DNA from: Methylophilales bacterium
GTDB taxonomy: Bacteria > Pseudomonadota > Gammaproteobacteria > Burkholderiales > Methylophilaceae
NCBI GenBank assembly: GCA_019823025.1
Contig: CP081940.1
Span: 62,001-126,000, forward strand
Direction: 5' to 3'
Length of the DNA stretch: 64,000 bases
In this document: in pieces, positions 10,605-28,352 of the stretch
Layout: every line of letters begins with the position of its first letter
Numbering within the stretch: position 1 is the stretch's first letter
Program-made: the position numbers and the translations under genes
The notes under the pieces: model-generated
What the model saw: the letters and a program-made list of their open reading frames with translations, nothing else
What the model was told of the DNA's origin: nothing
Database searches by the model: none

Positions 10605-10613
10605 TTAAGAGTT

Positions 10614-11504: not shown

Positions 11505-11520
11505 TATTTATTAAAAAAAT

Positions 11521-13320: not shown

Positions 13321-13432
13321 AAATGGCTTATGAAAATCAAAAATTTTATTAATTTAATACTGGACTTAAGAGTCAGTAATCACTTGATAATCAATGTATT
13401 GGTCGTTAGAAAAAATTACTTAAGAGGTGTTT

Positions 13433-14446
13433 ATGTTAAATAATAAATCATTATTAATAACAGGTGGTACTGGAACCTTAGGCAAGGCTTTGGTTAAAGA
13501 GATAATTAATCGGTTTCCCATGATTAAAAGACTTATTATTTTTAGCCGTGATGAATTAAAGCAATTCGATATGGCACAAGAGTTCCCTGAAAAAAAATAT
13601 GCTTGCATGCGTTATTTTATTGGAGACATAAGAGATATAGATCGCTTAAGGAGGGCTTTGGAAGGTGTTGATTATGTCATTCATGCTGCTGCATTGAAAC
13701 AAGTGCCTGCTGCTGAATATAATCCTACTGAATTCATTAAAACAAACATTCTTGGCTCAGAAAATTTAATTGAGGCCTGCATTGACAATAATGTAAAAGG
13801 TCTTGTGGCACTATCAACTGATAAAGCTGCAGCACCTATAAACTTATATGGTTCCACTAAACTTTGCAGTGATAAGCTTTTTGTTGCGGCAAATGGTTAC
13901 AAAGGAAGCAGGGTTTTAACTTTCTCCGTTGTCCGCTATGGCAATGTTATGGGTTCACGTGGTTCTGTAATACCATTTTTTATTGAAAAAAGGCGAAAAG
14001 GAGAATTACCAATTACAGACCCCAGAATGACACGCTTTAATATATCGTTGAAGGACGGAGTAGAAATGGTTCTATGGGCCTTGGAAAATTCAAAAGGGGG
14101 CGAGATATTTGTTCCTAAGATACCATCATATCTTATAACTGATCTAGCGAAAGCAATTTCTCCAAGTGCTAAACTAGTAAATGTTGGAATCAGACCTGGC
14201 GAAAAAATTCATGAAGAGATGATCACTGAAAGCGATAGTTTAAATACTGTCGATCTTGGTATTTACTGGGCAATTATATCAAGTTCAGGAAAATATTCAG
14301 TTGAACGATACTGTAAGGAATTTGGGGGAACAGCTGTTGGTGATGGATTTTCTTATAATTCTGGCACTAATCCAGATTTTCTCTCAGTTGAACAGCTTAG
14401 ACAGTTAATTAAAGAGGAGTATGATTCAAGCTTTGAGCCTATGTAA
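13433..14446 (+). CDS. PseB-like UDP-GlcNAc 4,6-dehydratase (inverting)
   Basis: This soluble SDR-type dehydratase resembles PseB/FlaA1, which converts UDP-GlcNAc to UDP-4-keto-6-deoxy-L-AltNAc, the first step to pseudaminic acid. It has 337 residues from the ATG at 13433. The motifs are TGGTGTLGKA near residue 10, SRDELKQFDMAQEF, AAALKQVPAAEYNP, STDKAAAPINLYGSTK (the Asp-Lys-Tyr catalytic group), and RPGEKIHEEM. The tyrosine of YGSTK places it in the short, inverting branch, unlike the long dehydratase at 31790. AGAGGTG before the ATG is a good ribosome site; an in-frame GTG at 13427 lies inside it. It opens a long block of coupled sugar genes. Confidence 0.9.
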   Translation: MLNNKSLLITGGTGTLGKALVKEIINRFPMIKRLIIFSRDELKQFDMAQEFPEKKYACMRYFIGDIRDIDRLRRALEGVDYVIHAAALKQVPAAEYNPTEFIKTNILGSENLIEACIDNNVKGLVALSTDKAAAPINLYGSTKLCSDKLFVAANGYKGSRVLTFSVVRYGNVMGSRGSVIPFFIEKRRKGELPITDPRMTRFNISLKDGVEMVLWALENSKGGEIFVPKIPSYLITDLAKAISPSAKLVNVGIRPGEKIHEEMITESDSLNTVDLGIYWAIISSSGKYSVERYCKEFGGTAVGDGFSYNSGTNPDFLSVEQLRQLIKEEYDSSFEPM

Positions 14447-14492
14447 TATTTTGTCTATAACAAAGCATCAAATAAATTCAAATTTAAATATT

Positions 14493-15659
14493 ATGTCAAG
14501 AAAACCATTTATACCTTACGGAAGACAAGAAATTACCCAAGACGATATTGAAAATGTTGCAAATGTTTTGAAATCTGACTTTCTAACTCAGGGCCCCTGT
14601 GTTCCAGAGTTTGAAAAAAGAGTCTCTGAATATTGTGGTGTTAAACATGCTGTAGCACTCAATTCATCAACTTCCGCTCTTCATATTTCTTGCTTATCTC
14701 TTGGTCTCAAAGCAGGAGACTGGCTTTGGACTAGCCCAATTACTTTTGTTGCTTCAGCGAATTGTGGACTTTATTGTGGAGCAAAAGTTGATTTCATCGA
14801 TATTGACCCTGAAACATACAATCTTTGCCCAAAAGCGCTTAAAAAGAAGCTTATTCAAGCAAAAAAAGTTGGTAAATTACCAAAAATTATAGTCCCTGTT
14901 CACCTCAGTGGCCAGTCTTGTGATATGAAAGCAATTCATGAGTTATCAAAAGAATTTAATTTTAAAATTATTGAAGATGCATCACATGCAATTGGAGGGA
15001 AATATCTTAATGAGCCAGTTGGTAATTGTAAATATAGTGACATTACAGTTTTTAGTTTTCACCCAGTAAAAATTATTACTACGGGTGAGGGCGGCATGGC
15101 ATTGACAAATAATAGCGTCATTGCTGAACGAATATCTATATTACGCAGCCATGGCATTACAAGAGATCCAAAGCTAATGACTCATGAGCCAGAAGGTGAT
15201 TGGTATTATCAACAAATTGATTTAGGTTTTAATTATCGAATGACAGATATTCAAGCTGCCTTGGGGATAAGTCAATTAAAAAGATTGGATAGTTATGTAT
15301 CTCGTCGACATGAGCTTGCTATGAGATACAACAATCTTCTTAAGGATTTACCCCTTATAATTCCTTATCAAAATAGTGATAATTATTCATCTTTTCACTT
15401 ATATATCATTAGACTTAGGGATAGAAAAAAACATAAGCAGACTTTCGAACATCTTAGAAAAGAAAATATTGGTGTTAATTTACACTATATTCCTGTTCAT
15501 ATGCACCCATATTATAGTGAGATAGATACTGAATATCATGATCTTAAACAATCTGAGCTATATTATAAAGACGCGATCAGTATTCCTTTATATCCCGCTA
15601 TGACTGAGTTGGAGCAGGATTTTGTTATAAGTTCTCTGGAAAAAGCATTACAAATATGA
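14493..15659 (+). CDS. PseC-like UDP-4-keto-6-deoxy-sugar aminotransferase
   Basis: This DegT/DnrJ/EryC1-family PLP transaminase resembles PseC, which aminates C4 of the PseB product. From the ATG at 14493 it has 388 residues and starts MSRKPFIPYGRQEIT, the usual start for the family. The PLP lysine is K193 in FSFHPVKIITTGEGG, and the cofactor aspartate is D162 in IIEDASHAIGG. SLALHP-like NSSTSALH binds phosphate. An in-frame ATG at 14421 lies inside the previous gene and adds 24 residues with no family counterpart, so it was not chosen. No PseH-type N-acetyltransferase follows, unlike canonical pseudaminate loci. Confidence 0.92.
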   Translation: MSRKPFIPYGRQEITQDDIENVANVLKSDFLTQGPCVPEFEKRVSEYCGVKHAVALNSSTSALHISCLSLGLKAGDWLWTSPITFVASANCGLYCGAKVDFIDIDPETYNLCPKALKKKLIQAKKVGKLPKIIVPVHLSGQSCDMKAIHELSKEFNFKIIEDASHAIGGKYLNEPVGNCKYSDITVFSFHPVKIITTGEGGMALTNNSVIAERISILRSHGITRDPKLMTHEPEGDWYYQQIDLGFNYRMTDIQAALGISQLKRLDSYVSRRHELAMRYNNLLKDLPLIIPYQNSDNYSSFHLYIIRLRDRKKHKQTFEHLRKENIGVNLHYIPVHMHPYYSEIDTEYHDLKQSELYYKDAISIPLYPAMTELEQDFVISSLEKALQI

Positions 15660-16522
15660 AGATTGAGTTAGGTACAGTTCAGTTTGGGATTCCCTATGGA
15701 ATTGCTAATTCTAAAGGTCAGGTAGAAAAAAAAGAAGCAAAAAATATTTTAGACTATGCCAAAAGCTCAGGGATAAATTCAATAGACACAGCAATAGCTT
15801 ATGGGACAAGTGAGAAATGTTTAGGTGAGATTGGATTGGATGGGTTTCAAGTGATTACGAAGCTACCAGAAATTCCTGATAATTATGGAAATTTAAAATC
15901 ATGGGTTCAAAAGCATATAAAAAATTCATTAAGAACACTTTCAGTAGGATCATTATCAGGTCTTCTCCTTCACAGACCAAGTCAATTGCTTGATTCAGAT
16001 AAGAATGAATTATGGTCGATATTACTTCGGTTAAAGGATGAGGGTCTTGTCAAAAAAATTGGTTTTTCCATTTATACACCTGCTGAATTAGATGATTTAT
16101 GGAATTTATATAAACCTGATTTAATTCAGGCTCCATATAGTATTTTTGATCGACGCCTAGAAACTAGCGGATGGTTAGAGCGTTTATATAATGAAAATGT
16201 TGAGATACATATTCGCTCTATATTTTTACAAGGGTTATTGTTAATGAATAAAAATGCTAGGCCAAAAAAATTCAATAAATGGCTTGAGGTTTGGAATCGA
16301 TGGCATGATTGGCTTGAGGGTAATAATGTTAGTCCACTTCAAGCCGCAGTTTCTTTCTCAATATCAGATAATAGAATTACAAAGGTTACAGTTGGTGTTG
16401 ATAGCCTTGGTCAGCTGAAGGAGGTTATTGCTGCGTCAAATAGTAATATAAATAAATTCCCACAAGACTTAAGTGTTGAAGATACAAAACTTTTAAACCC
16501 ATCTGAATGGGCCTCACTATGA
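15656..16522 (+). CDS. Aldo/keto reductase of a sugar cluster
   Basis: This (beta/alpha)8 NAD(P)H reductase has 288 residues. The AKR tetrad is visible: the aspartate and tyrosine in SIDTAIAYGTSE (D43, Y48), the lysine in VITKLP, and the histidine in GLLLHRPSQL. The C-terminal cofactor region is reduced to ISDNRITKVTVGVDSLGQL. This subgroup recurs in bacterial nonulosonate and flagellin-glycan loci next to SpsF-like and class III aminotransferase genes. The reaction here is unknown; reduction of a keto-sugar or keto-acid intermediate is the simplest guess. ATG overlaps the PseC-like stop by 4 bp, showing translational coupling. Confidence 0.85.
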   Translation: MKIELGTVQFGIPYGIANSKGQVEKKEAKNILDYAKSSGINSIDTAIAYGTSEKCLGEIGLDGFQVITKLPEIPDNYGNLKSWVQKHIKNSLRTLSVGSLSGLLLHRPSQLLDSDKNELWSILLRLKDEGLVKKIGFSIYTPAELDDLWNLYKPDLIQAPYSIFDRRLETSGWLERLYNENVEIHIRSIFLQGLLLMNKNARPKKFNKWLEVWNRWHDWLEGNNVSPLQAAVSFSISDNRITKVTVGVDSLGQLKEVIAASNSNINKFPQDLSVEDTKLLNPSEWASL

Positions 16523-17277
16523 AGGTAATTGCAATTGTTCAAGCACGAATGAATTCAGCGCGATTACCAGGAAAAGTCTTAATGCCTTTGGCAAACAAAC
16601 CTGTTCTGGCTCATATTGTTGAGCGACTATCTTATTGCAAGCTTGTCGAAAATATTTTAATTGCTACTTCTCACGAAGATAGAGATGACCCAATAGCCGA
16701 GTATTGTGAAAATAATAATATTGATTATTATCGTGGAAGTCTTGATGATGTCCTAGATCGTTATTACCAGGCTGCTAAGACTTATCATGCTGAAACGATT
16801 CTTCGCATAACTGCTGATTGTCCTGTAATTGACCCAATAGTTGTTGATGCTGTTATTGCTGGATATCTTTCAAACAAATATGATTTATATGGTCTTGGAG
16901 GTGAATTTCCCGATGGCCTTGATTGTACGGTTTTCTCTTTTAGCGCATTAGAGAAAGCATGGAAGAGGGCTAAATTAAAATCAGAAAGGGAGCATGTTTG
17001 TCCTTATATAGAAAAAAATCCCCAGATGTTTAATAATGGTATGTTGGAATTGTTTAAAGGATTAGATAAGCATCGATGGACTCTTGATATGCCAAGTGAT
17101 TATGAGTTACTAAGTAAAATATTTAATCAGTTATATAGGGAAAACTCACCGTTTCTAACACATGAAATTTTACAATTCATTCAAAGAAACCCAAAATTGC
17201 TAGCGATTAATTCTGATATTGTTCGTAATGAAGGATATCAAAAATCAATACAGAAGGAAAATATTAACAATGGTTGA
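16519..17277 (+). CDS. SpsF-like cytidylyltransferase-family protein
   Basis: This nucleotidyltransferase-fold protein belongs to the SpsF/CMP-KDO-synthetase-like group. From the ATG at 16519 it has 252 residues. The nucleotide loop is VQARMNSARLPGKVLMPL (6-23), followed by RGSLDDVLDRYYQAA and the metal-site motif RITADCPVIDP. RWTLDMPSDYELL is the C-terminal SpsF signature. PseF and LegF, the CMP-nonulosonate synthetases, share the fold, but the sequence is closer to SpsF, whose substrates are mostly unproven. An ATG at 16507 would add four residues; the 16519 start gives the ATGA overlap with the preceding gene. Confidence 0.85.
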   Translation: MKVIAIVQARMNSARLPGKVLMPLANKPVLAHIVERLSYCKLVENILIATSHEDRDDPIAEYCENNNIDYYRGSLDDVLDRYYQAAKTYHAETILRITADCPVIDPIVVDAVIAGYLSNKYDLYGLGGEFPDGLDCTVFSFSALEKAWKRAKLKSEREHVCPYIEKNPQMFNNGMLELFKGLDKHRWTLDMPSDYELLSKIFNQLYRENSPFLTHEILQFIQRNPKLLAINSDIVRNEGYQKSIQKENINNG

Positions 17278-18598
17278 CATCAATACACTTAAAAATGGTA
17301 AGGGGCCCAATCTGTATGAAAAAGCAAAAAAGTTAATTCCCGGGGGTACCCAATTATTATCAAAGAGACCTGAGATGTTTGTACCTGATATATGGCCTGC
17401 TTATTATTCAAAAGCAAAAGGTTGCAAAGTTTGGGATTTGGATGGAAGAGAGTTTATTGACATGTCAATCATGGCGGTTGGTGCATGTATTTTAGGATAT
17501 TCAGATGAGGATGTTGATGGAGCTGTAATTGAATCAATTCATAAAGGTGTGAATAGTTCACTGAATTGCCCTGAAGAAGTTGAGTTAGCGGAAGCATTAA
17601 TTGATTTACATCCATGGTTTGATATGGTTCGTTACGCCCGTGGTGGAGGTGAAGCTCTCGCTATTGCAGTTCGAATTGCTCGAGCTAAAACTAGGAGGGA
17701 TAAAGTTTTATTCAGTGGTTACCATGGTTGGACAGATTGGTATTTAGCAGCAAATCTTGATGATGAATCAGGTCTAGATGGACAGCTAATGCCTGGACTT
17801 GAGCCTAATGGAGTTCCTAGAGAGCTCGCAGGAACAGCAATTCCTTTTCATTTTAATGATATAGATTCTTTAAGGGAGGCGATTAGTGGAAATGAGTCTG
17901 AAATCGCGGCAATCATGATCGAACCTGCAAGAGGGGAGGAGGCACCTGAAGATTATTTGCAAACTTTACGAGAAATTGCATCAGAAATTGGTGCGGTATT
18001 AATTTATGACGAGATAACAAGTGGATTTAGAATGTGCGCAGGAGGTATACATCGAAGATATAAAATATATCCAGATATGGCTGTTTTTGCTAAGTCTATG
18101 GCTAATGGTTATGCAATGTCTTCAATACTTGGAAAAGAAGAGTTTATGCAGGCAGCGCAATCAACATTTATTTCCAGTACTAATTGGACAGATCGTGTAG
18201 GTCCAGCAGCAGCATTAGCAACATTAAAGAAATACCAAAAAACACAAACAGATAAACACATTATTTCTATTGGTGAAAAAACTCAAGAAATATGGAAAAA
18301 TGCTGCTCTAAAAAATAGACTAGATATTGAAGTTAGTGGATTACCAACATTATCGTCCTTTAGTTTTAAAAGCCAGCATGCTATGGATTTGAATACTCGA
18401 TTTGTGGTAGAAATGTTACAAAAAGGATTTTTAGGTTTTAGGCAATTTAAACCATCCTTGGCTCATAGCCAAATTGAATTGAAATTATACAAAAGTGCAG
18501 TAGAGGATGTTTTTAAAACACTATCTAATTTGCCAAATGATAAAATACTTAATTCTGAAAAAGCACACTCCACTTTTAAACGATTAACAACAGAATGA
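17270..18598 (+). CDS. Class III (glutamate-1-semialdehyde-mutase-like) aminotransferase
   Basis: This PLP enzyme resembles HemL but sits in a sugar cluster. From the ATG at 17270 it has 442 residues. The PLP lysine is K275 in VFAKSMANGYAMS, the cofactor aspartate is D247 in IYDEITSGF, and VRYARGGGEALAIAVRIARA replaces the HemL 'NSGTEA' loop, a change typical of sugar-linked members. The 17219 ATG inside the previous gene adds 17 unsupported residues. The chosen start overlaps the SpsF-like gene by 8 bp. It probably transaminates a keto-sugar or an aldehyde of a chain-extended sugar; true HemL function is unlikely from the context and the altered loop. Confidence 0.87.
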   Translation: MVDINTLKNGKGPNLYEKAKKLIPGGTQLLSKRPEMFVPDIWPAYYSKAKGCKVWDLDGREFIDMSIMAVGACILGYSDEDVDGAVIESIHKGVNSSLNCPEEVELAEALIDLHPWFDMVRYARGGGEALAIAVRIARAKTRRDKVLFSGYHGWTDWYLAANLDDESGLDGQLMPGLEPNGVPRELAGTAIPFHFNDIDSLREAISGNESEIAAIMIEPARGEEAPEDYLQTLREIASEIGAVLIYDEITSGFRMCAGGIHRRYKIYPDMAVFAKSMANGYAMSSILGKEEFMQAAQSTFISSTNWTDRVGPAAALATLKKYQKTQTDKHIISIGEKTQEIWKNAALKNRLDIEVSGLPTLSSFSFKSQHAMDLNTRFVVEMLQKGFLGFRQFKPSLAHSQIELKLYKSAVEDVFKTLSNLPNDKILNSEKAHSTFKRLTTE

Positions 18599-18612
18599 GG
18601 TAGGGGAGATTG

Positions 18613-18723
18613 ATGAGCAAAATTAAATGGAGCAAAATAAATTCTTTTGTGATGCATTTATTATTAAGCTATATGAAAAAATTCGTCGATATTAATTTTA
18701 ATATAAGCAAAAATAGGTTTTAG
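18613..18723 (+). CDS. Possible 36-residue small ORF
   Basis: Between the class III aminotransferase and the LicD-like gene there is a 36-codon open frame: MSKIKWSKINSFVMHLLLSY followed by a basic tail. It has a strong Shine-Dalgarno (AGGGGAG, 6 bp before ATG), starts 14 bp after the preceding stop and ends 2 bp before the next ATG. That spacing is what a coupled gene would show. The protein resembles nothing I recognise; a short hydrophobic stretch could be membrane-associated. It could equally be a leader that couples translation of the next gene, or chance in AT-rich DNA. Confidence 0.3.
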   Translation: MSKIKWSKINSFVMHLLLSYMKKFVDINFNISKNRF

Positions 18724-18725
18724 TT

Positions 18726-19523
18726 ATGAAAGGAAAAACAATTTATTTTGGCGCCGCGGGATCGGGACGTGCATATTGTCAGCATACAAAAACATACCCC
18801 GACTTCTTTATTGATAATGATTCAAGTAAGTGGGGAACATTTATCGAGGGGATTGAGATTAAGCAGCCAAGTGTTTTGGAATCTACCATGATAGAAAAAA
18901 TTATAATTACATCAGGATATGTTAAAGAGATGCTGCCACAACTTTTAAGCATGGGGATTGACAGAGATAAAATACATAGTCCAGCAAAATCCTTGTTAGG
19001 TTTTCATATATTTAAAGATCAAATAAATAGAATACAAACAGCAAAAAAACTTTTCCAGATAATGTCAGAATTAAGAGAAAATTGTAAAATTGTGGCGGTA
19101 GGGGGGACTGCTCTTGGGTTTGCTCGAAATAAAGACTTTATTCTTTGGGATTCAGATATTGATCTCTTTGCTCCAATTCGATCAAAGCTTGAAGTGTTTG
19201 AGTTTTTAAAAAACCTTGGGTACAAACCAGAATATGAGCTTCATTCGATCAAAGCAACAATGATTCTTGATAACGGAGTGGAAGTCCCAATTGGTATAGA
19301 TCTATTAGATTGGGGTACAGATACTTTTGTCGATATTTTCGAGGACTATTCATGGGTATGGCCTACAAAAATGTTTACAGAATGTTCAGAAATCGAAGTC
19401 CACGGAGTGAAGCTTAATATACCAAATCCTGTAGATAAATATTTAAGAAAGATATACGGTGAAACATGGCAAACACCAAATCCTAACTTTGCCTATTCGG
19501 ATTATGGTGGTGAAAAGGCATAA
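18726..19523 (+). CDS. LicD-like nucleotidyltransferase-fold protein with an N-terminal Rossmann-like domain
   Basis: This 265-residue protein has two parts. Residues 1-90 (IYFGAAGSGRAYC, FFIDNDSSKWG, GIEIKQPSVL) match the small Rossmann-like module often seen attached to sugar-locus enzymes. Residues 100-265 carry the LicD/nucleotidyltransferase core: GGTALGFARNKDFILWDSDIDLF (126-148), with the two metal-binding aspartates in DSDID. LicD proteins transfer phosphocholine or similar phospho-groups to glycans, so this one may add a phospho-substituent or activate a sugar. Substrate is unknown. It is in line with the surrounding sugar genes and 35 bp before the Nudix gene. Confidence 0.7.
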   Translation: MKGKTIYFGAAGSGRAYCQHTKTYPDFFIDNDSSKWGTFIEGIEIKQPSVLESTMIEKIIITSGYVKEMLPQLLSMGIDRDKIHSPAKSLLGFHIFKDQINRIQTAKKLFQIMSELRENCKIVAVGGTALGFARNKDFILWDSDIDLFAPIRSKLEVFEFLKNLGYKPEYELHSIKATMILDNGVEVPIGIDLLDWGTDTFVDIFEDYSWVWPTKMFTECSEIEVHGVKLNIPNPVDKYLRKIYGETWQTPNPNFAYSDYGGEKA

Positions 19524-19558
19524 AGAAAATTAGCAATTTACAATTAAAGAGATGAAAA

Positions 19559-19990
19559 TTGATAGAAACTCCCTTATTAACAGTAGATAGTGTAGTTTTT
19601 GATGGCAGTGGTGTTGTATTAATCCGGCGTGGATGCGAACCTTTTAAAGGAGAATATGCATTGCCAGGTGGGTTTGTAGATATTGGTGAATCTGTAGAGG
19701 ATGCCTGTATTAGAGAGTTAAAAGAAGAGACGGGCTTAGTGGTTAATAAAAACTCACTACAGCTTATTGGGGTATATTCAAAGCCAGGTCGAGACCCGAG
19801 AAGACATACAGCAAGTATTGCATATTTAGCAGAAGCAGATTTGAGTATGTTGCAGGCTGGAGACGATGCAGCATCAGTAGAATTGGTTATTGATTGGAAA
19901 AGAAAAAGTATTGCATTTGATCACATGAAAATTATTAATGATGCTAGCTTGTTATACGACAATATTACAAAAAATAAGGAAAAAAAATGA
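19559..19990 (+). CDS. Nudix hydrolase
   Basis: This 143-residue pyrophosphohydrolase has a full Nudix box, GGFVDIGESVEDACIREL then KEETGL (around 38-60), with the REL and EE metal ligands intact. RRGCEPFKGEYALPGG before the box resembles ADP-ribose/nucleotide-sugar Nudix proteins. In this setting it may cleave a nucleotide-activated sugar, releasing a sugar 1-phosphate, a role performed by other hydrolases such as PseG in canonical pathways. The start is TTG at 19559; an ATG at 19552 meets a stop after three codons. It overlaps the IspD-like gene by 4 bp. Confidence 0.85.
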   Translation: MIETPLLTVDSVVFDGSGVVLIRRGCEPFKGEYALPGGFVDIGESVEDACIRELKEETGLVVNKNSLQLIGVYSKPGRDPRRHTASIAYLAEADLSMLQAGDDAASVELVIDWKRKSIAFDHMKIINDASLLYDNITKNKEKK

Positions 19991-20706
19991 AAGCAGTCGC
20001 GGTTGTACTTGCCTCCGGCTCTGGAGAGAGGTTTGATGCACAAAATACTCCAAAACATTTAACTCCTATTCTAGGATTACCTATTTTTATTTGGACATTA
20101 AATACAGTCATTAAATCAAAAATATTCTCTTCAATTGTGGTGGTTACAAGAAATCAAGATATCTCAAACACAGAAAAGGCGATTAAGGAATATGTTCCTG
20201 AAAGCTCATCATCTATTAAAGTAACAAGCGGTTCGAAGGAGCGCATGGAGTCTTTTTTTTTAGGTTTAGAGCTTTTAAGAAATTCAAATTTATTAAATCA
20301 AAAAACAATTGTTGGCTTGTTTGATGCAAATCGACCCTTTACGCCAAAAAGTCAATTGGATAAATTATACGAATTAGCTCAAGAATTTGGTTGTTCATGT
20401 CCTGTTCGGCCAGCAGTTAATGGTATAGCAGAAATAGAATTAGAAAGAATTAAAAGTGTGCCAGAAAAATCAAAATATGTTGAATATGTAACTCCAGAAT
20501 TTATTCAGTTCGACAAGCTTTCCCAAGCAACAGAAAGCAGTAATCTTATATTAAGCTCTCTTGTTGAGTATGCATTATTTATAGAAATTAATCCTATTAC
20601 ATGCATTGCTTCTATACTTAACTCGAAACTAACTTTTCCAGAAGATAGGGCTTACCTTGAAGGACTTGCAATAGATAATAATCTTAAAAAAACCAATTCT
20701 TTATAA
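19987..20706 (+). CDS. IspD/TarI-like cytidylyltransferase
   Basis: This 239-residue GT-A-fold nucleotidyltransferase resembles IspD and TarI. VLASGSGERFDAQNTPKHLTPI (8-29) is the CTP-binding loop (consensus AaG.G.Rm....pKqf). TSGSKERMESFFLGLELL matches the 'GG..R..Sv..gL' motif, and LFDANRPFTPKSQL matches 'HDaaRPfv'. Housekeeping IspD would be expected with IspF or in another operon; here the neighbours are a transketolase pair and an SDR, so a CDP-activated sugar or polyol phosphate is more likely. It is the second cytidylyltransferase-like gene of the block. Confidence 0.85.
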   Translation: MKAVAVVLASGSGERFDAQNTPKHLTPILGLPIFIWTLNTVIKSKIFSSIVVVTRNQDISNTEKAIKEYVPESSSSIKVTSGSKERMESFFLGLELLRNSNLLNQKTIVGLFDANRPFTPKSQLDKLYELAQEFGCSCPVRPAVNGIAEIELERIKSVPEKSKYVEYVTPEFIQFDKLSQATESSNLILSSLVEYALFIEINPITCIASILNSKLTFPEDRAYLEGLAIDNNLKKTNSL

Positions 20707-20735
20707 CGAAAAAATAACTAGGAGGTTAGTAGATA

Positions 20736-21569
20736 ATGATTGAGGAAAATAATTGGCTCAGAAGAAAAGCTCTTGAGAGCATATATTATGCTAAATCAGG
20801 TCACCCTGGTGGCGTTTTGTCTGCGATAGATATAATTGACTTTTTATTTAAGAGCGAAATGAACTATAGCATTGATAATTTTGAGAGTTTAACTCGTGAC
20901 CGTTTTATTCTATCCAAAGGTCATAGTGCACCTGCACTTTATGCAGTTGGTGCAAAGGTTGGAATTATTTCTAAAGATAGACTGAATGGTTTAAGAAAAA
21001 TAAATCACGAGCTTCAAGCTCATACGCATCGCCTAACTACCCCATGGGTAGAAGCAAGTACAGGTTCATTGGGTCAGGGGTTTTCTTTTGCAATCGGAGA
21101 AGCTAAGGCGATGAAAATGCAGTCAATCGATAATAGAGTATATGTGATGCTTGGTGATGGTGAATTACAGGAGGGTGAGGTATGGGAAGGAGCAATGTTT
21201 TCAGCTCATCACGAGTTAGATAATTTGTGTGCTATCGTGGATTACAATAAAATGCAAAGCGATAATCTCAATGAAAACATTATCAGACTTGAGCCGTTAG
21301 TAAATAAATGGAAGTCATTTGGTTGGCATGTTATAGAAATAGATGGCCATAAATCTAGCGAAATTAAATTAGCTTTTGATGGTGCACGAAATGTAAAAAA
21401 AAAACCAACAATAATAATTGCAAATACTATCAAGGGGAAGGGTGTATCTTTTATGGAAAATTCTCCTACTTGGCATGGAAGCGTAAAAATGACCAAAGCC
21501 GATCTAAAACAAGCGCTTTTAGAGTTAGGTTCCTCCAATAGTGAGATTGGAGCAATTATTAATGAATAA
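20736..21569 (+). CDS. Transketolase-like protein, N-terminal (ThDP-pyrophosphate) subunit
   Basis: This 277-residue protein corresponds to the first half of transketolase. The ThDP/metal motif is GDGELQEGEVWEGAMFSAHH followed by LDNLCAIVDYNKMQ (around 135-168). SGHPGGVLSAIDIIDFLF and SKGHSAPALYAVG hold the substrate-side histidines. Its partner is the next gene, with which it overlaps by 8 bp. Split transketolases occur in archaea and in some bacterial sugar and antibiotic clusters. Here it likely transfers a two-carbon unit onto or off a sugar intermediate. A near-perfect Shine-Dalgarno, AGGAGG, precedes the ATG. Confidence 0.93.
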   Translation: MIEENNWLRRKALESIYYAKSGHPGGVLSAIDIIDFLFKSEMNYSIDNFESLTRDRFILSKGHSAPALYAVGAKVGIISKDRLNGLRKINHELQAHTHRLTTPWVEASTGSLGQGFSFAIGEAKAMKMQSIDNRVYVMLGDGELQEGEVWEGAMFSAHHELDNLCAIVDYNKMQSDNLNENIIRLEPLVNKWKSFGWHVIEIDGHKSSEIKLAFDGARNVKKKPTIIIANTIKGKGVSFMENSPTWHGSVKMTKADLKQALLELGSSNSEIGAIINE

Positions 21570-22530
21570 AAAACCAGAACTAATTGCGACTAGCGGAGAT
21601 TCTCTGAGGGAATCATTTGGAAAAACTCTGGTTTCATTGGCTAACCAGTATCCTAAAGTCATAGTTTTGGATGCAGACATTGCAGGAGGTACTGGTATAC
21701 ATCATTTTAGAGAAAAGTTTCCGGATAGATTTGTTCAATGTGGTATTGCTGAACAAAATATGATGGCAATGTCTGGAGGAATGGCAGCTGTTGGTTTAAT
21801 TCCGATAGTAACAACATTCGCAGTATTTATGCTTAGAGCTATTGAGCAGGCAAGACTCTCCATTGCATATGCTGATATGAATGTAAAGATTGTTGCTAGC
21901 CACCCAGGGCTAGATACAGGCCCAGATGGAGCATCAGCACAATGTTTGGAGGATATAGCCTGCTTTAGATCTATTCCTAACATGACCGTTATCTCACCTT
22001 GTGACCCACATGAAATGGAGCAAGCTACCAAAGCAATATTGGATCATATTGGCCCGGTATATATGCGAACTGGAAGAAGTGATACAAAAAGAATACTTAA
22101 TGATGAATATAAATTTGAAATAGGAAAGGGAAAAGTTATATATCCTGGAAAAGATTTAACTATCGTTGCTTGTGGGGTAGAGGTATCAAGAGCACTAGAG
22201 GCTGCAGAAATTTTGAGAAATGATGGAATATCTGCGAGAGTTGTAAATATGTCAACCATCAAACCAATTGATGCAGAATTGCTTGAAAAGTGCTCATCTG
22301 AGACAGGTGCGTTTGTTACTGCTGAGGATCATAGTGTAATTGGTGGCTTAGGGGGTGCTGTTGCTGAAGTCTTAGCAAAAAGCAAACCATCACCAATTGA
22401 ATTTATTGGAACTCAAGATGTTTTCGGAGAGTCAGGAGAGCCCGATGAGTTGGCAGAAAAATATGGACAAACTGCAAAATTTATTGTGGATGCAGCAAAA
22501 AAAGTGATTGATAGAAAGAAAGGGAGCTAA
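21562..22530 (+). CDS. Transketolase-like protein, C-terminal (pyrimidine) subunit
   Basis: This is the second half of the split transketolase, 322 residues from the ATG at 21562. The pyrimidine-binding domain has RFVQCGIAEQNMMAMSGGMA, with the activating glutamate in IAEQN. ASHPGLDTGPDGASAQCLED contains the conserved substrate-side histidine, and the C-terminal domain has VNMSTIKPIDAELL. An upstream GTG (21541) inside the first subunit would add seven residues; the ATG overlaps the preceding stop and is preferred. Heterotetramer formation with the N-terminal subunit is assumed from the family. Confidence 0.93.
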   Translation: MNKKPELIATSGDSLRESFGKTLVSLANQYPKVIVLDADIAGGTGIHHFREKFPDRFVQCGIAEQNMMAMSGGMAAVGLIPIVTTFAVFMLRAIEQARLSIAYADMNVKIVASHPGLDTGPDGASAQCLEDIACFRSIPNMTVISPCDPHEMEQATKAILDHIGPVYMRTGRSDTKRILNDEYKFEIGKGKVIYPGKDLTIVACGVEVSRALEAAEILRNDGISARVVNMSTIKPIDAELLEKCSSETGAFVTAEDHSVIGGLGGAVAEVLAKSKPSPIEFIGTQDVFGESGEPDELAEKYGQTAKFIVDAAKKVIDRKKGS

Positions 22531-22532
22531 AC

Positions 22533-23279
22533 ATGAGATTGAAAGGAAAAAAAGTATTGATAACCGGTGGGTCAAGAGGTTTAGGAAGGGCTATTTGTAT
22601 TGCATTAGCAAGTGAGGGAGCTAATATTGCCTTTACATATAGGAATAGTGGCGATGCAGTTAAAAGCTTGATTGAAGAAGTGAAAAGTTATGGTATCGAT
22701 GTTTTAAATTTTCAATGTGATGTAAGAGATCGAAAAGCTTGGAGAAGTGTTGTTGGGGAAATAGAAAATGAATGGGAATCTATCGATTCCTTAATAAATA
22801 ATGCTGGAATTAACAAGCCAACAGATTTTGATAAGATTACTGATTCTGATTGGGATGAGGTTATATCAATTAATTTAAAAGGACCATTTATTGCGTCTCA
22901 AGAGACATTTTCTTTACTAAAGAAAAGCAAAGCAGCAAGTATTGTAAATATAGGATCTACTAGCGGTCAGTACGGTGGGCCAAGAACTGCTCATTACGCT
23001 GCTAGTAAGGCTGGATTAATCTCACTTGGACAAGTAATTGCAAGATTTGGTGCAGATGAAGGTATTCGATGTAATACAATAGCAGTTGGTTTAATTTCTT
23101 CAGATATGGCTGCAGAGGGTTTAAAATCAGCAACTGTCCTAAAAGCAGCAGAATCTATTGTGTTAAAACGACTTGGGTCTTTCGATGAGGTTGCGAAAGC
23201 TGTTGTCTTTTTAGTTTCTGATGAAAGTAGCTATATTACTGCTCAAACAATTAATGTAAATGGTGGTCTTTATTTTTAA
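22533..23279 (+). CDS. Short-chain dehydrogenase/reductase (FabG-like)
   Basis: This 248-residue classical SDR has the cofactor motif GGSRGLGRAI (11-20), NNAG (around 88-91), the catalytic serine in IGSTSGQYGG, and the YAASKAG tyrosine-lysine pair. It ends with VNGGLYF, the FabG-type C-terminus. Its position 2 bp after the transketolase and overlapping the ATP-grasp gene by one base suggests it reduces or oxidises a cluster-specific sugar intermediate, not an acyl-ACP. PtmA-type SDRs occupy comparable places in legionaminate loci. Confidence 0.88.
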   Translation: MRLKGKKVLITGGSRGLGRAICIALASEGANIAFTYRNSGDAVKSLIEEVKSYGIDVLNFQCDVRDRKAWRSVVGEIENEWESIDSLINNAGINKPTDFDKITDSDWDEVISINLKGPFIASQETFSLLKKSKAASIVNIGSTSGQYGGPRTAHYAASKAGLISLGQVIARFGADEGIRCNTIAVGLISSDMAAEGLKSATVLKAAESIVLKRLGSFDEVAKAVVFLVSDESSYITAQTINVNGGLYF

Positions 23280-24508
23280 TGGGAGATGGCCAAAAAACAT
23301 TATTATTTATTGGTGGTGGAATAGAAACTCTTCCTGGAGTAGATTTAGCTAAGAAAATGGGATTGAATGTAATAGTATCTGATAGGAATCTCGAGGCACC
23401 TTGTATGGCAGTTGCTGATGACTGCATTATCGCCGACACATACGACGAGAAGCATACTTTATTAGCTGCAAAAAAATTTCATCATTCCAAAAGAAATATT
23501 GATGGAGTGATATGTATGGCTTCAGATATTCCTTTAACGGTTGCTACAGTAGCTTTTGGATTAAGCCTTCCTGGCATACCAGTCGCTTCAGCCAAAATTG
23601 TGGCCGATAAGCTTTTAATGAAAAATTGTTTTAAGGTTGCTGGACTTCCAATACCTAGATACCAAGAAATACACAGCATTATAGAGCTTAAAGAAAAAGC
23701 TAAAAATTTTGGCTTTCCATTTGTGATTAAACCTGTTGATAGTAGAGGTGCTAGAGGAGTATTTAAAGTAACCAAAAATGTTGATATTGAATGGGCATTC
23801 ATAACCGCAAAATCTTTTTCTCCAACTGCAAGAGTAATGATAGAAGAGTATATGCCAGGCCCTCAAGTAAGTACTGAGTCATTGATCATAAATGGAGATG
23901 TCTTTACTATAGGTTTTTCAGACAGAAATTATGAGTTTCTTGAAAAATACGCTCCAAATATGATTGAGAATGGAGGGGATTTACCAAGCAAACTAAAAGA
24001 AAAAGAACAATCTTTAATTAGGGAAGCAGTTGAAGAAACAGCCAAAGCACTTAATATTAAAAATGGAGTAATAAAAGGAGATATGGTTTTATCAAATCAG
24101 AATCCATATATCATTGAGGTTGCTGCTAGATTGTCAGGAGGTTATTTTTGTTCTCACGAAATTCCATTAAATACTGGTGTAAATTTTGTTGGTAACGCAA
24201 TAAAAATAGCATTAGGTGAAGATATTAAAAAAGAAGAATTAAAAGTTAAATCTAATAATCCTATTTCACAAAGATATCTTTTTCCAAAACCAGGTAAGGT
24301 TATAAAAATAGAAATACCTAAATGGGTTGGTGAAAGCAAATCTGTCATAATGTGTGAAATCAGAGTAAAAGTAGGAGAAATAATACCTGAAGTTACTCAG
24401 CATCCATCCAGAGCAGGTGTAGTCATTTGCAGGGGAAGTAATCTTAAAGAAGCTCAACAAACAGCAAAAAAAGTTGTCGATGAGGTTTTGATTGAAACGG
24501 TTTCTTAA
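23279..24508 (+). CDS. ATP-grasp ligase
   Basis: This 409-residue protein has a PreATP-grasp N-domain (LLFIGGGIETLPGVDLAKKM) and a CPSase/PurK-like ATP-grasp core: FPFVIKPVDSRGARGVFKV (the ATP-binding lysine and flexible loop), EEYMPGPQVSTESL, and the metal-site VAARLSGGYFCSHEIP. ATP-grasp enzymes join a carboxylate to an amine or thiol through an acyl phosphate. A cluster making amino sugars and keto acids offers both partners, so it may attach an amino acid or acyl group to the sugar amine. The substrate cannot be read from sequence. ATG overlaps the SDR stop by one base (TAATG). Confidence 0.85.
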   Translation: MGDGQKTLLFIGGGIETLPGVDLAKKMGLNVIVSDRNLEAPCMAVADDCIIADTYDEKHTLLAAKKFHHSKRNIDGVICMASDIPLTVATVAFGLSLPGIPVASAKIVADKLLMKNCFKVAGLPIPRYQEIHSIIELKEKAKNFGFPFVIKPVDSRGARGVFKVTKNVDIEWAFITAKSFSPTARVMIEEYMPGPQVSTESLIINGDVFTIGFSDRNYEFLEKYAPNMIENGGDLPSKLKEKEQSLIREAVEETAKALNIKNGVIKGDMVLSNQNPYIIEVAARLSGGYFCSHEIPLNTGVNFVGNAIKIALGEDIKKEELKVKSNNPISQRYLFPKPGKVIKIEIPKWVGESKSVIMCEIRVKVGEIIPEVTQHPSRAGVVICRGSNLKEAQQTAKKVVDEVLIETVS

Positions 24509-24523
24509 TTTATTATATCTATC

Positions 24524-25378
24524 ATGAGTTTTTTTATAGCAGAAGTGTCAAGCAACCACTCTAGAGATATTGATAGGGCAATCGAATTTATTGATGCTGC
24601 CTCTAAAATAGGTTGCGATGCTGTTAAATTTCAATTGTTTAAAATTGATAAACTGTTTGCTCCCGAAATTTTAGAAAACTCAAAAGAACATAGAGATAGA
24701 GAAGAGTGGGAATTACCTTTAGATTTTTTGCCTATATTGTCAGATTCTTGCAGAGAAAACGGAATTCAGTTTAGCTGCACTCCATTTTATATTGAAGCTG
24801 TTAAAGAATTAGAGCCCTATGTCGACTTTTACAAAATAGCTTCTTATGAATTACTCTGGGATGACTTACTTATTGCTTGTGCACGTAGTGGAAAGCCTGT
24901 AATTATTTCTACAGGTATGGCGAACTTAAATGAAATAAAGCATGCGGTAAAGACTTTACGAAATATTGATTGTGAACCAACCATACTCCATTGTACATCG
25001 TCTTATCCGACACCTTATACAGAAGCAAATTTATCCGCGATAGAAACTATACGTCAATCATTAGACTGTGCAGTTGGTTGGTCAGATCATACCGTTGAGC
25101 CTGGTGTTATTCATCGTGCAATAAATAAATGGGATGCAAAAGTTATTGAATTTCATTTAGATTTAGACGGCAAAGGTCAGGAATTTAAATCTGGACATTG
25201 CTGGCTCCCAGACCAAATTGGGTCAGTAATTAAACAAGTTAGACATGCGGAAGCCGCGGATGGAAATGGTATTAAAGCACCAACTCCATCTGAGCTATCT
25301 GATCGCCTATGGCGAGCAGATCCAGCTGATGGATTGAGACCATTAAAATCAATCCGGAAGAATTTTTCATCAAAATGA
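24524..25378 (+). CDS. NeuB-family synthase lacking the SAF domain
   Basis: NeuB/PseI/LegI condense PEP with a hexosamine to form nonulosonic acids. This protein has the TIM-barrel core: AEVSSNHSRDIDRAIEFID (6-24), DAVKFQ (32-37), FSCTPF, STGMANLNEI (129-138), LHCTSSYPTP and GWSDHT (185-190). It stops at 284 residues, about 60 short of usual, so the C-terminal SAF/antifreeze-like domain that closes the neighbouring active site is missing. The usual 'IEKH' reads VIEFHLD (207-213), keeping the histidine but not the lysine. The ribosome site and stop are clean and the next gene starts 9 bp later, so this looks like a natural form, not a break. Substrate may differ from that of standard NeuB. Confidence 0.85.
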   Translation: MSFFIAEVSSNHSRDIDRAIEFIDAASKIGCDAVKFQLFKIDKLFAPEILENSKEHRDREEWELPLDFLPILSDSCRENGIQFSCTPFYIEAVKELEPYVDFYKIASYELLWDDLLIACARSGKPVIISTGMANLNEIKHAVKTLRNIDCEPTILHCTSSYPTPYTEANLSAIETIRQSLDCAVGWSDHTVEPGVIHRAINKWDAKVIEFHLDLDGKGQEFKSGHCWLPDQIGSVIKQVRHAEAADGNGIKAPTPSELSDRLWRADPADGLRPLKSIRKNFSSK

Positions 25379-25386
25379 ATTAATAG

Positions 25387-26382
25387 ATGTCTAAAATCCT
25401 TCTTGTATGCTTTCTAAGTCCAGACATAGGTATCGGTCATCTTTCTAGACTTCTTGTATTAGCCGACTCATTGAAAAAAGATAGAAGTATTGTTTCGGAG
25501 TTCTTAATTTTTGGCGATCTAATTAAAAAAAATGAGTTAGCTACTTATAATGTCCATAATTTTTCACTTAAAAAGAACTTTGGTTCTATTATTGAAAATA
25601 TCTTAGATTCAAATAGTTTTGATGCTTTGGTATTTGATCTTTATCCAAAGCATAATATAAATAATCTTGGCAAATTATTCTATAAACTAAAGCAACTAAA
25701 TATATGTATCATAAGTATTGATTCACTTATTGAGTATTGCAATATAATTGATCTAATTTGGGTTCCATCATTTAATTTTGATTGCGATAAACATTCAGAT
25801 TGTACTTGTGAGTTTAAGTCAGGATGGGATAGCTTCTTGATTAAGAAGAGGCTTCAGCATAAGGTCTGGAGACCAGGATCAAAAGTTCTAATCCTAACGG
25901 GTGGGAGTGATGCTGCAAATTTAGTAGAAACGCTTCCTGCTAAATTAGATAGGTTGTTAGCTAATAATATTGAGATCCACTGGGTTAAAGGGCCATTTTC
26001 TAGAACTCCAAAGTTACCAAAAAAATGTCGTCTAAATTGGATTATTCATGACTCCCCAGAGCATCTTGATGCATTAATAGTAAAAAGCAACTATGTAATG
26101 ACAGTATTTGGAATATCTTTCTTTGAAGTACTTCAGTATGGAGTACCAACAGTTGTTTTCTCTCCATATGGTATGAAAGACAATGACGAGTTAAATAGTT
26201 TATTTGAAGAGAATGTAGCTATGGTTACAAAAACAACTGAGCAGGCAATTGAAGGCCTTATTAATCTTATGAAGAATGATAAGATTGCAAAAAAATATTC
26301 AATAAATGCATTAAAAAAAATGTCAATTAATGGAACATCACAACTGTCAAAAAAAATTATTTCGCTTATAGGGCCTAAATGA
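25387..26382 (+). CDS. PseG-like nucleotide-sugar hydrolase / GT-B protein
   Basis: This 331-residue GT-B-fold protein begins with SPDIGIGHLSRLLVLADSL, matching the PseG motif in which the histidine of the G-x-G-H loop is catalytic. PseG removes UDP from the bacillosamine-like intermediate of the pseudaminate path. The C-terminal half has VLILTGGSDAAN, SNYVMTVFGISFFEVLQYGVPTVVF and a final helix, as in GT28-like folds. A cysteine-containing insertion, DCDKHSDCTC (around 136-145), is not typical. It may hydrolyse a nucleotide sugar or act as a glycosyltransferase. It overlaps the GH57-like gene by 4 bp. Confidence 0.75.
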   Translation: MSKILLVCFLSPDIGIGHLSRLLVLADSLKKDRSIVSEFLIFGDLIKKNELATYNVHNFSLKKNFGSIIENILDSNSFDALVFDLYPKHNINNLGKLFYKLKQLNICIISIDSLIEYCNIIDLIWVPSFNFDCDKHSDCTCEFKSGWDSFLIKKRLQHKVWRPGSKVLILTGGSDAANLVETLPAKLDRLLANNIEIHWVKGPFSRTPKLPKKCRLNWIIHDSPEHLDALIVKSNYVMTVFGISFFEVLQYGVPTVVFSPYGMKDNDELNSLFEENVAMVTKTTEQAIEGLINLMKNDKIAKKYSINALKKMSINGTSQLSKKIISLIGPK

Positions 26383-28352
26383 AAGCAAAAGGATATTTGG
26401 TTTTTCACCTCAATCTAGCATTCTCGTCTATTGAGGAAGAGGCATGGGAGGATGTTATTCGAACTTGTTATCATCCATTGCTAAACCTTATAGAAAAAAC
26501 TGGTATTCCAGTTGGTATTGAATTAACAGGCTGGACTTTAAAGCAGATTGAACGTATCGATGATCTCTGGATTAAAAGATTTAAAGCATTATTGAATTCA
26601 GGAAATTGTGAATTAATAGGTAGTGGTTATTGCCAGATAATTGGACCTTTAGTCCCCTTTAAGTCAAATGAATGGAATCAAAAATTAGGAATTAATACTT
26701 ACAAAAAAATTCTCAATCAGAGACCTCAAATAGCCTTAGTAAATGAAATGGCTTTCTCAAGTAGCCTTGTAGATTTGTATGATAAATTTAATTATAAAGG
26801 TTTTATTATGGATCGAGATAATATTAATCTAGCAATAAATACTAAAAAAATATCCAACAAAGTCCCAACGCATGCTAAGGGAGTCAATGTTATGGAAATG
26901 CCTGTATTATGGTCTGATTCAATTTTATTTCAAAAAGTACAGCATTTTGCATATGGTGATTTATCTATAAGTGATTATTTAAATTACCTTAAAAAACGTA
27001 TTGGCAATAACGAAATTCTTCTTCCTATTTACTGTAATGATGCCGAAGTTTTTGATTATCGTCCTGGTAGGTTTAAAGAAGAAAGACCAACTCATCATGA
27101 GGGGGAATGGATAAGGATCGAAACACTACTTAACTTTATTTCCTCAAAAACTGAAATAGAATTTATTTCACCTTCAAGGGCATTAGAAATCAGCACAAAT
27201 AATAATGATAAATATGTCTCAAAGTTAGTTAGTTCAGCTTACCCAATACCAGTTAAAAAACAGGATAAGTATAATATAGTAAGATGGGCTCTTACTGGAA
27301 GAAATGACATTTGGATTAATACTATTTGTCATCGTATTGAACAACATTTCAATAAGTTTAAAAATAATAATTCTTATGATTGGGAAGCATTATGTGAATT
27401 ATGGTCAAGTGACTTACGCACACATGTTACAGACAAAAAATGGAACAAAGCATTAGCTCAAATGAAGTATTTGTTAGATAAAAACTCAATTAATAATTCT
27501 ATTAGAAATATTTTTAAAAAAGAAAAGAAATGCGACACCTTAAAATCTGCTATTGGCCATTACGGTGATTTTAAAATTTGTCTTGATGATGAGGGAATTT
27601 TTCTAACCATCACCACAAAGAGAATAAGGCTAGAATTAAATATAAGAAGAGGAATGGCTATTAAAGGCCTTTCATTTTTATCCCATAAAATGGAACAATG
27701 TATTGGCACATTAGCACATGGACATTTTTCAAGTATTTCATTAGGTGCAGATTATTATTCCGGAGGTTTAATAGTTGAGTTACCTCTTCAGAGAAAGCGA
27801 GTTACAGATCTTGAAAAAGTAAATCCAAAATTCGCTATTAAAAGTAATGGATATATTCAGATTAGTTCAAGAATAAATACTCATATTGGATCAATAGTAA
27901 AAATAATTGAGGTTTCACCAGATACTGAAAAAGTTTTTTTAAGTTATGACTTCTCAAAATGTAAAAAGATTATTGGAAGTGTTAGGCTTGGAATAATAAC
28001 TTTATTGAATCAATTTAGTGATGGCAACACAACGTTATTTTGCGCAAATGGAGGTGAAGATAATGAGCTATTTAATTTGGATGGTGATTTTAATCATACA
28101 CTACCAGCATCAACTCTTGTTTCCTCTTCAAGAGGATTAGGTTGCACAACAGGAATAATTCAACTATCGAATAAAAGAAAAAAATTAAATTTTAAATGGG
28201 ACCCAAGCAAGTATGCAACAATCCCTATGCTTCATAATGAATCCTTTGATAAGGAATCCCTCTCCAGAATATTATTTTCTGTTAAGGAAATTGACGACAC
28301 ATCAAAGGATATATCAAGCATCAGTTCATTTGCTTTACAAATTTCAACATAA
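26379..28352 (+). CDS. GH57-like glycoside hydrolase/transferase
   Basis: This 657-residue protein has an N-terminal (beta/alpha)7 GH57-type domain. LVNEMAFSSSLVDLY places E123 where the family nucleophile lies, and LLPIYCNDAEVFDYRPGRF places D221 at the general-acid position; HHEGEWIRIETLL follows as in family members. The second half (about 380-657) is a beta-rich C-terminal domain. GH57 enzymes cut or rearrange alpha-glucans or alpha-galactosides. No signal peptide is visible, so it would act in the cytoplasm, which is odd for a glycan cluster. Its coupling to the PseG-like gene suggests a role in trimming or transferring the cluster's sugar. Activity is inferred. Confidence 0.7.
   Translation: MKAKGYLVFHLNLAFSSIEEEAWEDVIRTCYHPLLNLIEKTGIPVGIELTGWTLKQIERIDDLWIKRFKALLNSGNCELIGSGYCQIIGPLVPFKSNEWNQKLGINTYKKILNQRPQIALVNEMAFSSSLVDLYDKFNYKGFIMDRDNINLAINTKKISNKVPTHAKGVNVMEMPVLWSDSILFQKVQHFAYGDLSISDYLNYLKKRIGNNEILLPIYCNDAEVFDYRPGRFKEERPTHHEGEWIRIETLLNFISSKTEIEFISPSRALEISTNNNDKYVSKLVSSAYPIPVKKQDKYNIVRWALTGRNDIWINTICHRIEQHFNKFKNNNSYDWEALCELWSSDLRTHVTDKKWNKALAQMKYLLDKNSINNSIRNIFKKEKKCDTLKSAIGHYGDFKICLDDEGIFLTITTKRIRLELNIRRGMAIKGLSFLSHKMEQCIGTLAHGHFSSISLGADYYSGGLIVELPLQRKRVTDLEKVNPKFAIKSNGYIQISSRINTHIGSIVKIIEVSPDTEKVFLSYDFSKCKKIIGSVRLGIITLLNQFSDGNTTLFCANGGEDNELFNLDGDFNHTLPASTLVSSSRGLGCTTGIIQLSNKRKKLNFKWDPSKYATIPMLHNESFDKESLSRILFSVKEIDDTSKDISSISSFALQIST

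Follow-up and report, generated by a model that had tools for sequence, protein, structure and literature searches.

A recurrent pseudaminate-type gene set without PseH that carries a split transketolase and an ATP-grasp ligase in a Methylophilales bacterium

Introduction

What does a transketolase do among the genes for a bacterial surface sugar? This question is raised by a block of 15 genes at positions 13433-28352 of a stretch of 64,000 nucleotides from a Methylophilales bacterium (GenBank assembly GCA_019823025.1, contig CP081940.1; G000:C1:62001-126000 in our numbering), which is called the window here and belongs to a genome made up of a single contig of 1,336,408 bases. The block encodes PseB, PseC and a short NeuB-like synthase together with a transketolase split into an N-terminal (TKN) and a C-terminal (TKC) subunit, a short-chain dehydrogenase (SDR) and an ATP-grasp ligase. 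Nonulosonic acids form coats on flagella and cell surfaces; their presence is usually predicted from PseB-PseH or Leg gene lists. A reading of the window made from the letters alone (the sequence-only reading) had seen a pseudaminate-like cluster rebuilt around the split transketolase.

The answer that we propose is narrower. Part of the block may represent a recurrent variant of the pseudaminate-type pathway without PseH, in which a thiamine diphosphate (ThDP)-dependent enzyme and the SDR build an acyl group and the ATP-grasp ligase attaches it. We give this complete chain slightly less than an even chance of being right.

Recurrence of the gene set

An alignment of three ATP-grasp ligases, from the window, from the phage contig L013 and from the plasmid locus L021, was used to collect 75 loci; the collection is pattern-based and not exhaustive. 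All 75 loci were searched with the window proteins by tblastn, and 62 of them have at least 3.5 kb of upstream sequence, 69 at least 2.2 kb of downstream sequence and 38 have 9 kb on each side. TKN and TKC were each found in 56 and the SDR in 57 of the 62 loci with enough upstream sequence, and in 55 of these all three genes are no more than 5.5 kb away from the ATP-grasp gene, which is more than expected by chance. A GH57-like gene is present in 61 of the 69 loci with enough downstream sequence. Among the 38 loci with both flanks an SpsF-type cytidylyltransferase occurs in 32, NeuB in 30, PseB in 26, PseC in 26, and either NeuB or PseB in 32. The recurring set consists of PseB, PseC, SpsF, short NeuB, TKN, TKC, SDR, ATP-grasp and GH57.

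The record titles of the loci name Chloroflexota (Anaerolineae), Nitrospinota, Verrucomicrobia (Chthoniobacteraceae), Acidobacteria, Deltaproteobacteria, Phycisphaerales, Neomarinimicrobiota and Alpha- and Gammaproteobacteria, many of the records being metagenome-assembled genomes that are possibly misbinned. Nearest to the window block is L050 from Neomarinimicrobiota (identities: TKN 69%, TKC 72%, SDR 63%, ATP-grasp 56%, IspD 51%, LicD 50%), and plasmid pDCAR1 of Solidesulfovibrio carbinolicus (L021) carries NeuB (58%), SDR (55%), TKN (56%), TKC (51%), ATP-grasp (43%), GH57 (34%), PseB (54%) and PseC (41%). In a small comparison covering three of 314 plasmid records, no transketolase was found near the related ATP-grasps (32-33% identity) of H2 and H3, two plasmid loci that are capsule-like. 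Furthermore, 32 of the 75 loci contain an open reading frame (ORF) family termed C2; the one member that was scanned, in L091, encodes a flagellin and has FlaF and FlbT as neighbours. These ORF families are single-linkage clusters and include some spurious frames.

The viral contig L013 (IMG/VR IMGVR_UViG_3300017963_000283, 63881 bases) encodes a methyltransferase, TKN (49%), TKC (56%), SDR (34%) and ATP-grasp (42%) at 8426-15704, and an MptE-like (PF01973) protein at 18728-20197. The module adjoins phage-type genes there, namely for a DNA methyltransferase, a RuvC-like resolvase and a protein resembling phosphoadenosine phosphosulfate reductase. A phage may alter host glycans by using this module.

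Five further genes of the window, for an aldo/keto reductase, a class III aminotransferase, a LicD-like protein, an IspD-like cytidylyltransferase and a Nudix hydrolase, were found in 1, 2, 1, 1 and 0 of the 75 loci, respectively, and are local extras, not core. The sequence-only reading had taken the whole set as one rebuilt pathway and had suggested searching for the same combination in other genomes. The core set does recur, but these five genes do not, and the idea of a single rebuilt pathway is not supported.

The same counts bear on the possibility that two pathways simply lie side by side, PseB, PseC, NeuB and SpsF leading to a nonulosonic acid, and transketolase, IspD-like, SDR and LicD-like proteins making and transferring a cytidine diphosphate (CDP)-alditol phosphate, e.g. 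ribitol phosphate. The LicD-like, Nudix and IspD-like genes directly precede TKN in the window, and the LicD-like and IspD-like genes do so in L050 as well. However, each of the latter two occurs in only one of the 75 loci, transketolase, SDR and ATP-grasp mostly occur together without them, and PseB and short NeuB are present in genomes carrying the module even where they are unlinked from it. Hence, we regard this arrangement as quite unlikely; a CDP-alditol pathway as the chief role of the transketolase was rejected, since at one of 75 loci it is not general.

Genome-wide link to PseB and short NeuB

Eighteen carrier genomes, belonging to 17 of the 75 loci and to the window itself, were searched as a whole. 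PseB scored over its cut-off in all 18, compared to one of 14 control genomes and 72 of the 289 genomes of the class of genome G160. The short NeuB, with an open frame of 288-307 amino acids, was likewise found in all 18. Even the Acidobacteriota-type carriers L029, L037 and L039, which show neither NeuB nor PseB in the fetched 21 kb, have both elsewhere in the genome. Within the class of G160, PseB is present in eight of nine genomes with the ATP-grasp compared to 64 of the 280 others; with the seeds G160 and G162 removed, the ratio is still six of seven against 64 of 280 (Fisher p 0.001). The module is real, it recurs and it is linked to PseB and short NeuB; very probably it belongs to a nonulosonate pathway.

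In the three Acidobacteriota-type loci TKN, TKC and ATP-grasp stand alone (L029 7352-11233, L037 7323-11227, L039 8063-11227), accompanied by an SDR in L029 and L037.

Departures from the pseudaminate pathway

In common with the pseudaminate pathway (PseB-C-H-G-I-F), the window has PseB and PseC, both of which pass their equivalog cut-offs, and a NeuB-family synthase, a PseG-like protein and a cytidylyltransferase as well. The differences begin with PseH, the best match to which in the entire genome reaches 24.7 bits compared to a cut-off of 93.1. No PseH over the cut-off was found in any of the 18 carrier genomes, 17 of which contain weak matches of the PseH fold family. In the NeuB-like protein no domain other than Pfam NeuB was seen, the usual C-terminal domain being missing, and it stays below the cut-offs of both NeuB (182.9 of 399.65 bits) and the PseI equivalog (167.4 of 340.25). 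The PseG-like protein misses the PseG equivalog cut-off (Table 1), as do all carrier genomes, of which 12 show weak matches, and the SpsF-type protein misses the PseF equivalog (22.3 of 205.7 bits). Besides these missed models and the shortened NeuB, the window differs by the added transketolase pair, SDR, ATP-grasp and GH57. A nonulosonic acid pathway in the wide sense is indicated by the NeuB-family synthase (PF03102) together with the candidate cytidine monophosphate (CMP)-sugar synthetase (PF02348). SpsF is fused to a PseG-like domain in many alphaproteobacterial loci; in the L091 fusion of CTP_transf_3 and PseG the latter scores 95.8 of 153.55 bits. For the GH57-like protein, Foldseek puts GH38 mannosidases first and VIA-align puts GH57 first when the predicted model is searched; no substrate follows from this.

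The sequence-only reading was right that PseH is missing and that the set is not a canonical pseudaminate one, the scores for the PseH, PseG, PseI and PseF models all lying under the cut-offs. Its PseB and PseC stand, while its PseG-like protein is a weak match and its NeuB-like protein short and under the cut-off. The split transketolase, aldo/keto reductase, class III aminotransferase, SDR, ATP-grasp, Nudix, SpsF-like and IspD-like genes that it listed are present, but the LicD-like and GH57-like genes were omitted. Searches of open-licence papers gave no description of this gene set.

The split transketolase and its replacement

The two transketolase subunits (277 and 329 amino acids) match transketolase families, with 300.1 and 295.3 bits to PRK05899.2-5 for the two halves, where the cut-off of 488 refers to the whole protein. 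They also match the split transketolase of Carboxydothermus hydrogenoformans (6yaj/6yak), which shares the two chains and the domain order and provides the best structural matches. In contrast to that enzyme, its LSKST is replaced by IAGGT in the window and the His of GASHQ by Ala, and the window pair lies in a sugar locus. Of 21 module sequences 19 have the exact AGGTG in the TKC loop, compared to none of 11 other transketolase C domains; a GPDG motif was excluded from the signature as it also occurs in L014. The equivalents of an Arg and a His are kept in TKC/TKN and a phosphate-loop Ser is changed to Gly, residues which we take to act in the handling of sugar phosphates by transketolases. 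A tree of 32 C domains did not give one clean clade for the module transketolases, and their monophyly was not retained; the midpoint root lay on one very long branch, and numerous forks were weak or open. Since the tree is unclear, we rely on the loop signature to set them apart. More distant split transketolase pairs without the AGGTG loop occur in the sugar loci L021 (22122-23853), L018 (12354-16651) and L061 (12961-14700).

Such a pair could also merely supply central intermediates to an ordinary pseudaminate-type cluster, and it does keep most transketolase motifs and has a split transketolase as its best match. However, the genome has a second, full-length transketolase (G000:C1:1068923, 543.6 bits), and the pair was rejected as the central enzyme; the sequence-only reading would have been refuted had it been the only one. 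The conserved change of the TKC loop and the regular linkage to PseB and NeuB also speak against a supply role, which we consider hardly credible. In the excerpt of PMC12342839 considered here, transketolase is listed in the table of the pentose phosphate pathway, apart from the flagellar nonulosonate cluster.

More can be learned from the six of 62 loci in which TKN and TKC are missing. In two of them, L026 (8305-10005) and L086 (4295-5989), an acetolactate-synthase-like ThDP enzyme together with an SDR occupies the interval from NeuB to ATP-grasp. These enzymes have 566 and 564 amino acids and score 514.2 and 404.9 bits, respectively, compared to the TIGR00118 cut-off of 538.35. By tblastn such a gene was found in no other of the 75 loci and neither in the window nor in L013 or L021. 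The swap of transketolase for an acetolactate-synthase-like enzyme makes a ThDP-dependent transfer of a two-carbon unit followed by reduction of a ketone the likely step. Acetolactate synthases yield hydroxy-keto acids, and the swap therefore suits a ligase that uses a carboxylate.

Nevertheless, a similar exchange between two-subunit and single-chain ThDP enzymes is known for branched sugars, so that a branched-chain sugar remains a rival. In the manner of AviB1/AviB2 or YerE, the transketolase pair would then attach a two-carbon (hydroxyacetyl) branch at a keto group of a nucleotide sugar; the SDR would reduce the branch and the ATP-grasp would amidate a carboxylate of the product. In the cited part of PMC4753412, attachment of a C-4 acetyl branch is proposed for Pau11/Pau12, which are homologous to AviB1/AviB2, and the single thiamine pyrophosphate flavoprotein YerE adds the branch of yersiniose, while Pau7 is the partner ketoreductase that reduces the branch in the Pau system. 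These are ThDP carboligases of sugar biosynthesis as well, but they act in branched octose pathways as described there, whereas PseC and a carboxylate-amine ligase are found here; the comparison was made by description. PseC aminates the only 4-keto sugar that the core genes are known to give, namely that formed by PseB, and the amide ligase would be left without a job. We consider a branched sugar unlikely.

The ATP-grasp ligase and a proposed route

Two domains of the ATP-grasp protein score over their cut-offs, PF02655 (53.3 of 23.2 bits required) and PF18603, LAL_C2 (50.6 of 29.4). The predicted model (predicted local distance difference test score 95.9) aligns to the L-amino acid ligase 3vot with TM (template modelling) scores of 0.83/0.86 and also resembles the L-amino acid ligases RizA and BacD. 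The window protein shares the fold and the LAL_C2 domain with BL00235, RizA and BacD, but only about 16-22% identity, and it is linked to nonulosonate genes. It is thus L-amino-acid-ligase-like, and from the model we predict that it forms an amide between a carboxylate and an amine. The acylated or aminoacylated keto-acid sugar suggested by the sequence-only reading agrees best with such a ligase in genomes without PseH over the cut-off.

A different carboxylate is conceivable. ATP-grasp ligases need one, the nonulosonic acid has one, and the short NeuB departs from the NeuB and PseI models; the ligase could therefore amidate the C-1 carboxyl of the finished keto acid, with transketolase and SDR making the amine or alcohol partner. 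In genomes that have no PseH over the cut-off, no enzyme would then be left to acylate the amine made by PseC, which makes C-1 amidation very unlikely in our view.

In the route that we prefer, PseB and PseC would form uridine diphosphate (UDP)-4-amino-4,6-dideoxy-AltNAc, as expected from their family membership, and the 4-amine would not be acetylated by PseH. The ThDP carboligase, i.e. the split transketolase or, in two loci, the acetolactate-synthase-like enzyme, would move a two-carbon unit onto an acid acceptor, and the SDR would reduce the resulting ketone to a hydroxy acid. From the acetolactate-synthase-like enzymes of L026 and L086 a related acid with a methyl group would be expected. 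The ATP-grasp, in the position of PseH, would activate the carboxylate with ATP and couple the acid as an amide to the amine made by PseC. The sugar may then be released by the divergent PseG-like protein, condensed with phosphoenolpyruvate (PEP) by the short NeuB to an unusual nonulosonic acid, and converted to the CMP sugar by the SpsF-type enzyme. We infer all reactions beyond PseB and PseC, and the product, from the families and arrangement of the genes.

Several observations speak against this route. Of the 72 PseB carriers among the 289 genomes only seven match PseH at E 1e-15, and only two do so over the cut-off. Because PseH is that rare among PseB carriers, the fact that ATP-grasp and PseH never meet (0/9, Fisher p 1) is uninformative, and it was rejected as proof of a replacement. 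In genome G419 the ATP-grasp is present but PseB was not found at the threshold applied, and four of the six loci without transketolase (L030, L036, L043 and L051) show neither ThDP enzyme in the available stretch. The top Foldseek match of the ATP-grasp by E-value is 4dim, annotated as glycinamide ribonucleotide synthetase and not as a peptide ligase. The scheme offers no step for the GH57-like gene, and a ThDP enzyme combined with a reductase is also a recipe for branched sugars in the cited part of PMC4753412.

Still more tentatively, the module could define a widespread and so far undescribed class of nonulosonic acids. A polyhydroxy acid, made by a ThDP carboligase of either type together with a reductase, would be linked to the amino sugar by the ATP-grasp and not by an acetyltransferase, before the short NeuB completes the keto-acid skeleton. 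Such nonulosonic acids might be placed on flagellins in many Alphaproteobacteria and on a surface polysaccharide here, and their genes would partly be carried by a phage.

Layout, genomic setting and origin

All 15 genes of the block are on the plus strand with gaps of at most 127 nucleotides (Table 1). The block extends from the ATG of PseB at 13433, in an ORF open from a GTG at 13427, to the end of the last gene at 28352, in agreement with the sequence-only reading. The description of nearly all genes as coupled by overlaps was too strong, since with the starts chosen here seven of the 14 junctions overlap.

Table 1. Genes of the block in their order in the window; bits refer to the model named.
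Gene product	Position	Strand	Class	Evidence	Occurrence
PseB, UDP-N-acetylglucosamine 4,6-dehydratase (inverting)	13433..14446	+	core	TIGR03589 498.7 bits, cut-off 407.75	over cut-off in 18/18 carrier genomes
PseC, aminotransferase making the UDP-4-amino-4,6-dideoxy sugar	14493..15659 (ORF open from 14421)	+	core	TIGR03588 552.8 bits, cut-off 423.5	26/38 loci
Aldo/keto reductase	15656..16522	+	accessory	PF00248 117.3 bits	1/75 loci
SpsF-type cytidylyltransferase, candidate CMP-sugar synthetase	16519..17277 (ORF open from 16507)	+	core	PF02348 109 bits	32/38 loci
Class III aminotransferase, glutamate-1-semialdehyde-aminomutase-like	17219..18598 (start uncertain, ATG at 17270)	+	accessory	PF00202 136.2 bits	2/75 loci (L027, L048)
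LicD-like nucleotidyltransferase-fold protein	18726..19523	+	accessory	PF04991 48.5 bits, residues 123-159	1/75 loci (L050)
Nudix hydrolase (TTG start)	19559..19990	+	accessory	PF00293 72.8 bits	0/75 loci
IspD-like cytidylyltransferase	19987..20706	+	accessory	PF01128 70.9 bits	1/75 loci (L050)
TKN, transketolase N-terminal subunit	20736..21569	+	core	best PDB match 6yak (N chain of split transketolase), E 3.4e-76	56/62 loci
TKC, transketolase C-terminal subunit, loop DADIAGGTG	21541..22530	+	core	best PDB match 6yaj, E 5.1e-92	56/62 loci
FabG-like SDR	22533..23279	+	core	TIGR01830 227.5 bits, under cut-off 297.75	57/62 loci
ATP-grasp ligase with L-amino acid ligase C-terminal domain, proposed PseH replacement	23279..24508	+	core	PF02655, PF18603 LAL_C2	
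Short NeuB (284 amino acids), putative PEP condensation	24524..25378	+	core	PF03102 202.9 bits	short copy in 18/18 carrier genomes
PseG-like, nucleotide-sugar hydrolase candidate	25387..26382	+		TIGR03590 53.8 bits, cut-off 153.55	
GH57-like with mutarotase-like C-terminal domain	26379..28352	+	core		61/69 loci

Upstream of the block lie rmlBACD and a PglK-like ATP-binding cassette transporter, and downstream two family-2 glycosyltransferases, a sugar phosphotransferase and a WbpM/CapD-like protein; from these neighbours we conclude that the setting is a surface-polysaccharide locus. Directly after the block (28356-29282) a protein of 308 amino acids is encoded that matched neither Pfam (at E 0.1) nor NCBIfam; it is a candidate glycosyltransferase for the CMP sugar.

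The locus is flanked by kbl-tdh-gmhA on one side and HAD-oxidoreductase-trhO-rlmN on the other. Between the same flanks, the same-genus genomes G001, G003 and G006 carry other polysaccharide cassettes, and no TKN, ATP-grasp, short NeuB or GH57 was found in the approximately 40 kb fetched from each. The whole polysaccharide locus (window 5672-34337; same-genus loci L106-L111) is swapped between fixed flanks within the genus. At E 1e-80, where no more than a few candidates were scored in each genome, the 398 other relatives searched yielded no ATP-grasp. TKN matched seven of 148 other relatives at E 1e-50, and in the seven stretches fetched around these matches no ATP-grasp was found. Given relatives without the ATP-grasp and with other cassettes between the same flanks, the cassette looks acquired.

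Conclusions

If the proposed route is true, the usual gene lists misname a recurrent branch of nonulosonic acid biosynthesis, and genomes with PseB, PseC and NeuB are called pseudaminate makers although the steps that build and attach the acyl group are different ones. Named cultured carriers of the module exist, e.g. Alphaproteobacterium SO-S41 (L088), in which it takes the flagellin-linked form, and Solidesulfovibrio carbinolicus DSM 3852 (L021). If the route holds, ThDP carboligases and amide ligases would gain a role in the acylation of nucleotide sugars.

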